Source: Candidatus Altimarinota bacterium (GTDB lineage Bacteria > Patescibacteriota > Gracilibacteria > BD1-5 > JAGOOR01). From it: a stretch of 61,896 nt of DNA. The stretch lies in NCBI GenBank assembly GCA_023268615.1, contig JALQUC010000015.1:1-61896 (forward strand), written 5' to 3'. Positions within the stretch are counted from its first letter, which is position 1, and every line of letters begins with the position of its first letter. Of this stretch, positions 2,648 to 7,159 are shown in pieces. Both the position numbers and the translations under genes were made by a program. The notes beneath the pieces are model-generated. The model saw only the letters and a program-made list of their open reading frames with translations. It had not been told where the DNA came from and did not search any database.

Positions 2648-4126
2648 TTATTCCTTCACTGCTGGCCCTACCGCTGGCTCTGTACTGTAGATGATGGGGT
2701 CCATAGGTCCTATCTGTACTTTTTGGACGAATGATTCTATGAGAGGGATGATGATAGTGCTAGGAGCGTAGCCTTCTTTTGGAGGGTTTTTGACTGGGAA
2801 GATGTAGGCTGGGACGAGGTATTCTGTTGTCTTACCATTTTTCCATTCACCAAATATGTGAGCGTAGCCGAGGGTTGGCTCTCCGAGTGAGATATTTACG
2901 ACTTTTCGACCTGCATTGGCACTCGTGTCAGTGTTGATATATCGACCACCATTTTTTATCATATCCTGGATGAGGGTGAGGTCTTGGATAGTCTTGTAGG
3001 ATGAGCGATTGAGAGTGGATTTCTCGATACCATACAGTCCTGTGATGCGCTTGGTGCGGATATGGTAGTTGAGAGTGAGTCCCCTGTAGCTGCCACCTTC
3101 TTGGTAGATCGTTTTGCCATCGAGGAGGAGGGGATAGGTGACGGTATACATATCTGGGATCATCTGTTCTCCGCCCATCTCTGCGCTGCGAGCGTACCAT
3201 ATACGCCATGAGCTATCGACCTGTGGTGCTCCGTAGGCACTCATATCTATGCGGTATTTCTGGATAAATTTCTGGCTCTCGGCGATGATGACGCTGTCCG
3301 CGGGGATGTCTGATTCTGTGAGTTTTGGGAGAGGAGTACAGCCGTTCTGATCACAGACGGGCTGAGGCCATTTGAGATAATTCTGGTACATGTTGATCGT
3401 CCCATTGAGAAAATCGATATTGAGCATATAGCCGTAGTCTCTGTCCTCTGTCAGGGTGAGATTGGAGAGTCCGAGATTTTCAAATGCTCCTGTATCAATG
3501 TCTCGGAGAGCGAGATTTCGGACGATAGAGCGAGTGTCACTGCTATTGAAGGGGATATTTTCTTTTCTGTAGACCGGGAGCTCGGATTCAGGGAGCTCTA
3601 TTTTTCCTTCGTAGGTGTAGTTATAGACTGGCATATCTATCGGAGGATAGATCATGGCATCTGGTGCCATCATCTTTGACGAGACGGCATCGGCATTGCC
3701 CAGTGAACCACCTCCACCACCACTCTGTGGTCGTGCGGCTGTCTGTGCCTGTGGAGCGAGCTCTATAGTTCCGAGTCATTCTTGACCGACTTCTCGGACA
3801 GTGTTTTGAAATGAGAGGAGTGTTGCTGAGTTTGCACTTTCTCTACCGTTTATGATCCAGACACCGGCTATCAGACAGAGGCTGAGAGCTCCTGCGACGG
3901 GCATCCAGCTCCACCAGTATTTTGGTGCGTTTTGTCGACTCATCTCGCGTTCAATCTCGAGCATGATTTTGTGTCTGAGCTCGTTGCGAAATGATTCATC
4001 TATCTGGATTTCTGGACGATTTTTGATCATCCGTTCGATGATTTTCTGGATTTCTGATTCCTTTTGACGGAGATCAGGGTCGAGAGCATAGAGCTCCTGG
4101 AGGATGTCGTTAATATTGACTGACAT
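2648..4126 (-). CDS. Anti-sigma-factor-like membrane protein, large extracytoplasmic part
   Basis: Predicted regulator of the adjacent ECF sigma factor, 492 aa. The first ~90 residues are charged and helical (cytoplasmic sigma-binding type). A single membrane segment follows around residues 82-100 (PVAGALSLCLIAGVWII), then a low-complexity linker with a five-Gly run, then a ~340-residue domain with no family I recognise. It contains a Cys-Asp-Gln-Asn-Gly-Cys motif. The chosen ATG overlaps the sigma gene by 17 bases, a typical sigma/anti-sigma arrangement. A TGA at 3776-3778 (Gly) joins the two halves. The role as anti-sigma is inferred from position and topology; no zinc-binding HxxxCxxC motif is seen. 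Confidence 0.65.
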
Positions 4127-4670
4127 AGGAGAGAAGAAGTGAAAAAATAAAGATATAGGTAATATTTGCGGATATTTTTGCCATAGTGCGGGAGACGATT
4201 TTCTTTGCATTGGCGACGCTCTCACCGGTGATCTCGCTGATCTCCGCGTAGGAGAGTCCGTCCCAGACGCGCATCGTGAGGAGAGTCCGCTCTCGCTCCG
4301 TGAGGGTCTGGAGGAAATTCATGACTTCTGCGAGCTTGGTACTCGTGTCTATCTCATGTCCTAGATCGCGGCTATACCCGAGAGTATCATCGAGCTCCTC
4401 TGTCGGACGAGCGGAGCGAGTATCATCGATGAGGGTCGTATAGGCGATACGGTAGATCCAGGAGAAAAATTCTCCCTCATGATTGCCGCGGAAACTGCGG
4501 ATGCGACGAAGTGCCTTCATATAGGTATCGGCGACGATGTCCTCAGTTTTCTCATGGTCACCTGTTCGGTGATAGATAAATCCGTACACGCGGTCATAGC
4601 TCATATCATAGAGTGCTGAGAAAGCATCGAGCTGACCGTTGCGGATTTTTGCGAGTTGCGATGCAAACAT
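4110..4670 (-). CDS. ECF-family RNA polymerase sigma factor
   Basis: Alternative sigma factor of the sigma-70 ECF group, 186 aa. Region 2 is clear near the N-terminus (FSALYDMSYDRVYGFIYHR, then EDIVADTYMKALRRI and a Trp-Ile-Tyr-Arg-Ile-Ala segment). Region 4 follows a Glu/Asp-rich linker, with LTERERTLLTMRVWDGLSYAEI as the helix-turn-helix. The start at 4670 (MFASQL) fits the usual family N-terminus better than an ATG at 4727. The 3' end overlaps the membrane regulator gene. A short inverted repeat (CCTAC-5 nt-GTAGG) lies in the upstream region. The extra hydrophobic C-terminal tail comes from the overlap. Confidence 0.88.
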   Translation of the reverse strand: MFASQLAKIRNGQLDAFSALYDMSYDRVYGFIYHRTGDHEKTEDIVADTYMKALRRIRSFRGNHEGEFFSWIYRIAYTTLIDDTRSARPTEELDDTLGYSRDLGHEIDTSTKLAEVMNFLQTLTERERTLLTMRVWDGLSYAEISEITGESVANAKKIVSRTMAKISANITYIFIFSLLLSYVSQY

Positions 4671-4825
4671 AAATTGAGAAATATTTCCTACAGAGTGTAG
4701 GACGAAATTGTATGCAAAAGGTGACAAAAAAATATCTTTTTTCCAGATGCGACTTCTCGTGATGAAAAATGTTCCCTTTTTCCGTTTTGATGATATACTT
4801 CTGCCAATACTAAAATTTTTCTCTC

Positions 4826-7159
4826 ATGTTTGATTTTTGAATCCTCGGAATGAACGCGAGGAATCTCCTCTACATCAAAAAATTTAATCACAAAAAATCC
4901 ATCTCTCTCGCGGATAGTAAAATAAAGACAAAGACCTATCTCTCTGCTCGAGGTGTGCCATTTGCTGAGACATTTGCTGTTATAAATTCCAAATCTGAAC
5001 TCCAGGAGTGGAATATGGACAGTCTGCCTCGTCGATTTGTCGTGAAGCCAAACGAGGGGAGCAAGGGGAATGGTATTCTCGTGCTCGAGCGGAGAGGGGA
5101 TGTATTTGTCTCACAGGATCGTGAGTATTCTGAGTGGGATCTCAGAGCGCATATGGTCGACATATTGGACGGAGCGTTTTCTATCTCAGGGGGGTATGAT
5201 ACAGTACTTATTGAGGAGCAGCTTCTCCCAGATGAAGGATTTCGCCACTTTTGTCAGCATGGACTCGCAGATATCCGTGTCATAGTATTTAATCTCGTAC
5301 CCGTGGCAGCCATGGTCCGTATGCCGACCGCTCTGTCTGGTGGTAAAGCCAATCTCGCACAGGGTGGAGCAGGATTTGGTATCGATGTGACGACGGGGGA
5401 AGTGCATTCGTTTTTCCAGCACAAGATCCTGCATCACGATATATTTCCTGAGAAGTATCGATTTCTCCGTGGGAAAAAAATAGGCTACTGGAATGATATC
5501 CTCCTCTACTCCTCACAGATTCAGATATTTGCCAATCTCGGCTACCTCGCCCTCGACTGGGTCATCACACCGACGGGTCCGAAGCTCCTCGAAATCAATG
5601 CTCGTGCAGGCCTCGAAGTACAAAATGTAAACGGTATTGCTCTGCGTTCCAGACTTCGGAAAGTCGAAAATATCCGCATCACTGATCCTGTGAAGGGTGT
5701 GGAGATAGCGCGTTCGCTGTTTCATGAGCATCCACTTTTTCAGATCCAAGAAGACAAAATCCTCTATCAAAAACAAAAGTGATGTGTCCGCACGGAGACT
5801 ATGCGTCATGAAAATATCGACATCATCGTCGACCTCGAGTCTCCCTCGACACGCGGAAGTGCTGACTATCTCGGTGAATCTGGTCCATTTTCTGTCGTCA
5901 CCTACGATGGAGCCCAGATGACATTACCGACGATTTCTATTGATGAGACACTGCCCCCACAGACACTTCTTCTCTCAGGGCAGGATATACCTGATCACTT
6001 CGTGAAGCCTTCTGTCTCACCACAGTACGATGTCGTCTATCGATATACGAAATCCAAGTGGCCTCAGACTATTATCGATATTGATGAGACACTCTACAAG
6101 ATGGCAAAAAAAGTGAATCTGTCGTATTTCCTCAAGCCTACTAATTACTACCAAGAGCTCGATACATTTATTTCTGCTCAGGGACTCTATAATCCTGTTT
6201 TTCAGTATGATTTTCCAGAGAGAGTCGCTTTTGAAAAATTCACACAGGATGCCGCTATCCTCCGTGACACCATCGCGTCTATCGGTTCCGGGTATACTGC
6301 TGTCGCTCAATTATTCTACGAAAAACTCGATGAACTCGAGTACAAATCAGAGCTCCTCAGAGGCTATGCTCGTGAAAATCCTGTTGCTATCCGTGATGCC
6401 AATATCGCTCTCTTTGGTGACATCGATGATACACTCTTTGCTCTCGCAAAGGACAAACTCACGACCCTGAGTGATGTCCAGAAATCACAAAAGAAAGTCC
6501 GAGGCAAACTCCTCACCCCCGATGAAGTCCTCGAGGCCGCGACTGCCTATTGTCAGGAACATCAACTGTCTGATATACCTGTCGCCATTCGTGATAGAAA
6601 TTTCTCGCGTATATCCATCACCTACGGTAAAAATATCCGTATCAATATCTCCAAAAATGCTCGCATCTACGCTCAAGAATTGCCAGCTATCCTCGCTCAT
6701 GAGATAGGGGTCCATCTCCAGCGTCATCTCTCTGGTCAGTCTCTCGGACTCAAAATATTTCAGCACGGGACGGGATACTATATCCGTGATGAGGAAGGTC
6801 TCGCTATCTATGAATCGCTCAAGCATCTGCCAGAGGAATATGAAAAAAATGCCATGTATATCAAGTACTATCTCTCTTATATGGCAAAGACAATGAATTT
6901 CTCAGATCTCGCTCGACTCATCCAGTCACTCTATCCTGAGAAGGCGCAGGAGCAGATTTTTTCTGATACTTGTCGTGTGAAGCGTGGCATCAAGCATACC
7001 CAGAGAACCGGCATACTTGGCTATATGAAAGACTCAATTTACCTGCCAGGATATCTCAATATGAAACAGTGGATTGAGTCGGGAGGCGATCCGTATATGC
7101 TCTTTCAGGCAAAGATAAAAATTACTGATATTCCTCTTATGAAATCCTTCTTTACATAG
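4826..7159 (+). CDS. RimK-like ATP-grasp ligase fused to MATCAP/DUF1704-type metallopeptidase
   Basis: Bifunctional 777-aa protein. Residues ~1-318 resemble the alpha-L-glutamate ligase-related ATP-grasp family: a MFDFGILGMNARN-type N-terminus, VVKPNEGSKGNG nucleotide loop and a LEINARAGLEVQ metal/ATP site. Residues ~330-777 match the DUF1704 (QEGLA / tyrosine carboxypeptidase-like) family, with a HEIGVH zinc motif (His625, Glu626, His630) and EEGLA at 656-660. The join is a TGA at 5780-5782 followed in frame by six codons before an internal ATG, so with UGA = Gly there is one polypeptide. The start at 4826 includes an early UGA-Gly and restores the family N-terminus. The likely chemistry is peptide-bond formation with an amino acid such as glutamate, plus C-terminal trimming; the substrate is unknown. 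Confidence 0.85.

Follow-up and report, generated by a model that had tools for sequence, protein, structure and literature searches.

Does an ATP-grasp enzyme of the glutamate-ligase type form one protein with a MATCAP metallopeptidase in the tiny genome of a patescibacterium, and what would such a protein do? The question was raised by a gene in the window, the whole stretch of 61,896 nucleotides that was analysed, in which a TGA codon lies in frame between the two domains. We examined the reading frame, the domains and the neighbouring gene (Table 1) and compared them with relatives across the phylum.

Table 1. Features of the fusion gene and its downstream neighbour in the window
Feature	Position	Strand	Basis or description
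Fusion gene	4826..7159	+	Table 25, 777-aa chain: RloC-like ATP-grasp, degenerate retropepsin (predicted), MATCAP
TGA = Gly5	4838..4840	+	Alignment column
ATP-grasp domain, aa 12-282	4859..5671	+	PF14397; TIGR02291-like, RimK fold
D244...E256-x-N258, expected ATP-grasp metal-ligand motif	5555..5599	+	E256 and N258 in LLEINARAG block
Middle domain, aa ~300-411	5723..6058	+	Predicted degenerate RloA/RimB-like retropepsin fold; group profiles and model
TGA = Gly319, start of middle domain	5780..5782	+	TGA also in same-genus genome G379
D336-L337-E338, at the site of D-T-G in intact retropepsins	5831..5839	+	Alignment
MATCAP metallopeptidase domain, aa 447-775 (Pfam)	6164..7150	+	PF08014; model compared with human MATCAP
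HEIGVH (HExxxH), aa 625-630, metal-binding/catalytic motif	6698..6715	+	Sequence, conservation
EEGLA motif, aa 656-660, expected third metal ligand E657	6791..6805	+	Sequence, conservation
RloB-like protein, 510 aa	7308..8840	+	N-terminal hydrophobic (signal-like) segment, ectodomain, 7TM PF14402

Reading frame, ligase and metallopeptidase

The earlier note had read the TGA at the junction as glycine and the gene as a single-chain fusion, and both readings were borne out. The first TGA of the gene falls in an alignment column that holds Gly in 26 of the 28 sequences. In the homologue from the same-genus genome G379 (566/672 identical, 84% over 672 aa), the junction codon is also TGA, and the catalytic EEG motif has its Gly encoded by TGA as well. 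A prfB model yielded one match in the genome, an RF1-like factor with the RF1-type tripeptide PET and a score below the cut-off, and no RF2 was found by the prfB profile search of the genome. The Gly5 column, the TGA usage of G379 and an RF1-like protein as the sole release-factor match together indicate that TGA is read as Gly. The fusion itself is independent of the TGA code, because table-11 relatives have both domains in open frames of about 770-850 aa that contain no TGA; a TAA or TAG between the domains was looked for in related genomes, and the relatives were uninterrupted. Table 11 does cut the window frame into 310 and 452 aa, but two separate proteins with a stop at 5780 are virtually ruled out by the unbroken chains of table-11 homologues, by TGA codons where Gly is conserved, among them the one for the catalytic EEG Gly in the same genus, and by the failure to find RF2 in the genome.

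The three-domain chain was present in 37 of 379 sampled genomes of the phylum and was also seen in named Gracilibacteria, Peregrinibacteria and Peribacteria and in one Dojkabacterium; a scan of viral contigs found no relatives. Divergent from the fusion gene and separated from it by about 100 bases, an ECF sigma factor and a following anti-sigma-like gene that may encode one membrane helix occupy positions 2648-4727 of the minus strand; the anti-sigma-like gene had no Pfam match.

The N-terminal domain matched ATPgrasp_ST PF14397 with 168.9 bits (cut-off 31.4). It scored 198.5 bits with TIGR02291, 'alpha-L-glutamate ligase-like', under the equivalog cut-off of 314.2 (NCBIfam), and 39.3 bits with the RimK family TIGR00768, under the cut-off of 143.4. 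The full-length protein was modelled with AlphaFold (pLDDT 85.6), and structure matches of this model included RimK (5zct, Z 17.5) and ArgX (3vpb, Z 18.3). The D244, E256 and N258 columns were invariant in one alignment and nearly invariant in another, and these residues are the expected metal ligands by analogy with RimK-type enzymes. E-x-N was kept in 60 of 64 three-domain chains; it is degenerate in the chain of genome G457, where the ligase may be dead. In the ATP-grasp tree, proteobacterial RloC formed the sister clade. A TTLL-type ligase was rejected, with TTL PF03133 matching weakly in 5 of 20 members and PF14397 matching in all 20. The window ligase is thus closest to RloC/RimK-type enzymes and is not a TTLL, so the comparison with the tubulin code drawn earlier stands as an analogy of enzyme types and fails for the pathway. 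To our knowledge, no reaction has been demonstrated for RloC itself.

The C-terminal domain matched MATCAP PF08014 with 77.5 bits (cut-off 27) and scored 93 bits with TIGR02421, the 'QEGLA motif' model, below its equivalog cut-off of 338.65. In a phmmer search of the PDB the window protein matched human MATCAP, KIAA0895L, and the full model superposed on human MATCAP 7z5g with Z 24.4 and an rmsd of 2.8 over 278 aligned residues. HExxxH was found in 62 and [EQ]EG in 61 of the 64 three-domain chains. The MATCAP tree was poorly resolved and does not fix the number of MATCAP gains.

A retropepsin-like middle domain and its active-site motif

The two-domain architecture proposed earlier was not sustained, as a third, retropepsin-like domain lies between ligase and metallopeptidase. 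Other Patescibacteria (Moranbacteria, Kerfeldbacteria, Kaiserbacteria and others) carry two-domain RloC::RloA chains, in which the ATP-grasp domain is followed by a C-terminal retropepsin; one such chain matched PF05618 with 33.2 bits (cut-off 27) and also the PDB entries of RloA, 9g58 and 9g59. The profile of this C-terminal retropepsin matched the 'linkers' of the three-domain chains with an hhalign probability of 99.6%, and 44 of 64 linkers were found singly at E < 1e-3, the best of 1280 shuffles reaching 0.041. The middle segment of the table-25 group to which the window belongs aligned with the retropepsin profile at 98.5%. PF05618 had no match on the window protein or in the window genome (92% complete), and a sequence search with the window middle segment alone did not recognise a retropepsin. 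The window's own middle segment is too diverged, and the assignment therefore rests on group profiles and fold.

Three of the four highest-ranked structure matches of the middle domain, folded alone with AlphaFold (pLDDT 80), were RloA 9g58 (Z 9.8), lpg0085 2pma (Z 9.4) and RloA2 9g59 (Z 9.1), RloA matching best, and the top-50 list consisted almost entirely of aspartic proteases. Foldseek gave no E below 1e-3 (plasmepsins were best, 2e-3), and the structural case is made via the Z scores of 9-10. The profile match and the retropepsin fold reject a plain unstructured linker. As modelled, the segment is a degenerate RimB/RloA-type retropepsin.

Loss of the active-site motif accompanied MATCAP. 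D[TS]GA was intact in 25/25 first-sampled two-domain chains, all from non-MATCAP Patescibacteria, and in 6/6 stand-alone RloA proteins, compared with 0/64 three-domain chains. Among the 95 chains of a larger collection (30 MATCAP-fused, 8 MATCAP-adjacent and 57 others), D[TS]G was lost from 28/30, 5/8 and 0/57, respectively, a total of 33/38 versus 0/57. Five MATCAP-bearing chains still had it, three with a separate adjacent MATCAP and two fused. On the ATP-grasp tree the losses fell in three separate lineages. One is the main clade of three-domain chains and another a pair of Dojkabacteria that sits within the two-domain chains; in the third, f49/f138, MATCAP is encoded by a separate gene next door and the retropepsin Asp has become Asn. 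The change was to NTG or NTS in the f49 genomes and in G301, all with an adjacent MATCAP. At two loci (L187 and L188), RloB, RloC::RloA with intact DTGA, and MATCAP are adjacent separate genes, an arrangement that is the step before motif loss. A kinship-corrected sign test of motif loss against MATCAP was not significant (p 0.5), reflecting the few independent MATCAP gains that could be paired.

An active retropepsin domain with MATCAP as an unrelated add-on is very improbable. The fold is retained, and D[TS]G persists in the two fused chains (L083 and L128), but the motif is unrecognisable in nearly all others, where its replacements vary (N, A, E, R), and the window has D-L-E. The natural D-to-N change of the f49 lineage is moreover that of RloA D48N, the catalytically inactive control in Pseudomonas aeruginosa work (PMC12239564). 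Comparison of the relatives suggests instead that MATCAP replaced the retropepsin as the trimming peptidase.

The RloB neighbour and related loci

The rlo operon of P. aeruginosa encodes the retropepsin RloA, the inactive transglutaminase-7TM protein RloB and the ATP-grasp protein RloC (PMC12239564). In Pseudomonas it governs osmotic tolerance, cell shape and sensitivity to wall antibiotics. Because its middle domain is retropepsin-like and its next gene RloB-like, the window locus reads as a variant of this system. The product of the next gene matched 7TM_transglut PF14402 with 30.1 bits (cut-off 25). The transglutaminase-like domain PF14400 was not detected in it at E 0.01, and its ectodomain was not recognised as a transglutaminase; PF14400 was detected at a gammaproteobacterial locus (L180). 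The Moranbacteria loci L133-L138 have an RloB of only about 220 aa, the 7TM part alone.

RloC chains occurred in 112 of 379 genomes of the phylum. RloB was found in 109/112 of these and in 0/267 genomes that have no RloC chain, and lay within 3 kb of the RloC chain on the same strand in 101/112. PF05618 was detectable in 0/37 three-domain genomes versus 51/75 two-domain genomes. In the 118-genome set of relatives, only G397 had a recognisable retropepsin. This genome, from the same order as the window, carries an unfused rloB-rloC-rloA operon and no three-domain chain, and its RloA has an intact DTG and an N-terminal hydrophobic segment. Same-order genomes of f154 (L075-L077, L080 and L081) have the three-domain gene, with RloB elsewhere in the genome. 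Two further loci (L201 in G257 and L249 in G076) encode RloC::RloA with intact DTGA and an extra C-terminal extension in frames of 856-922 aa; the extension at L249 is a second ATP-grasp domain.

In other Patescibacteria, MATCAP genes also adjoined genes for a RimK-type ligase and a RimB-like protease. Three of four tested RimK proteins beside MATCAP exceeded the S6-glutamate-ligase equivalog cut-off. Clusters of MATCAP, RimK-type ligase and RimB-like retropepsin were seen at seven loci (L254-L260, in G031, G302, G168, G236, G361, G311 and G318), which would constitute a second glutamylation locus with MATCAP.

Proposed function and relation to known systems

The RloA of P. aeruginosa cleaves poly-Glu, and the rloA triple mutant is rescued by deleting rloB or rloC (PMC12239564), from which it follows that RloA has to remove something made or handled by RloB and RloC. 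Human TMCPs likewise shorten poly-Glu chains (PMC10499314). The history we favour, at somewhat better than even odds, is that of an rlo-type system in which the RloC ligase was fused first to the poly-Glu protease RloA, the MATCAP metallo-carboxypeptidase joined the RloC::RloA chain second, and the aspartic protease part then decayed, MATCAP taking over its trimming. The ATP-grasp domain would attach amino acids to an acceptor, L-glutamate being the most likely, and the MATCAP domain would trim that tail from its exposed C-terminal end. The dead retropepsin may be a leftover scaffold or a tail-binding module, and RloB at the membrane might supply, export or sense the modified product. The fused ligase and carboxypeptidase probably add and trim glutamates on an RloB-linked substrate. 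The pairing of writing and trimming in one chain, plausible as it stands, gains support from the origin of the middle domain in a poly-Glu protease family and from MATCAP beside RimK/RimB pairs elsewhere. The window chain is presumably cytosolic and RloA is periplasmic in Pseudomonas, so the compartment of the substrate may differ. The wider proposal is put forward tentatively, at somewhat less than even odds: in a bacterial glutamylation system, a MATCAP deglutamylase that became fused to the ligase would have replaced the poly-Glu aspartic protease in more than one lineage, with the dead protease staying between them, to give a self-contained writer-eraser, and bacterial MATCAPs would gain their first assignable role.

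Two other readings bear on the product. The ligase may, though this is the less likely case, add a residue other than glutamate or modify a cell-wall or sugar-linked peptide, with the logic of ligase and peptidase unchanged. Its scores under both the TIGR02291 and RimK cut-offs fit this, as do the ease with which ATP-grasp specificity changes and the rlo phenotypes of P. aeruginosa in cell shape and wall-antibiotic sensitivity; RloA and TMCP, however, both act on poly-Glu, and RimK and LysX/ArgX, users of Glu-type substrates, are among the closest structural relatives of the ligase. We consider it a little more doubtful still that the chain makes or recycles peptides, the ligase building a small peptide or envelope metabolite that MATCAP matures or recycles, instead of the two tagging a protein reversibly. 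In its favour, 'sugar-transfer associated' is the name of the ATP-grasp family, rlo has no known protein substrate, and several relatives have more ATP-grasp genes downstream, an arrangement typical of peptide biosynthesis clusters; at the Moranbacteria loci L134 and L148, three extra ones each come immediately after rloB and RloC::RloA. Against this reading, the middle domain is of poly-Glu protease type, and RimK, with which MATCAP clusters as well, produces Glu tails bound to protein.

The rlo, RimK/RimB and MATCAP families are already described. The window shares with the rlo operon an RloC-type ATP-grasp, an RloB-type 7TM neighbour and the RloA retropepsin fold within the chain; it differs in that ligase, retropepsin and MATCAP form one chain with MATCAP added, in that the degenerate retropepsin is not secreted and follows the ATP-grasp domain without a signal peptide, and in the undetected PF14400 domain. 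With RimK-RimB, the S6 glutamate ligase and its retropepsin, it shares the RimK fold and the pairing of poly-Glu ligase and protease, and MATCAP adjoins such genes elsewhere, whereas the window ligase is not RimK itself and has a fused chain and an RloB partner. Human MATCAP/TMCP1-2 (KIAA0895L/KIAA0895; PMC10499314) has the same fold and the HExxxH and EEG motifs, but the window MATCAP is bacterial and ligase-fused, in an organism with no microtubules. The bacterial 'QEGLA motif' proteins of TIGR02421 belong to the same metallopeptidase family, although that model covers a stand-alone protein. The earlier note had called the form undescribed; this held, as far as the open-access literature shows, for the fusion and not for its parts, which belong to the described rlo system (PMC12239564). 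Neither an earlier description of the fusion nor an account of MATCAP as an rlo partner was found in the open-access literature, a scope that leaves out the central amidoligase survey, and no tested role for bacterial MATCAP/QEGLA proteins was found.

The fusions of Patescibacteria link ligase, retropepsin, MATCAP and RloB to a single task. If addition and trimming of one tail are both done by one chain, the type of enzyme that trims tubulin tails in eukaryotes would have a bacterial counterpart that works with a glutamate ligase.
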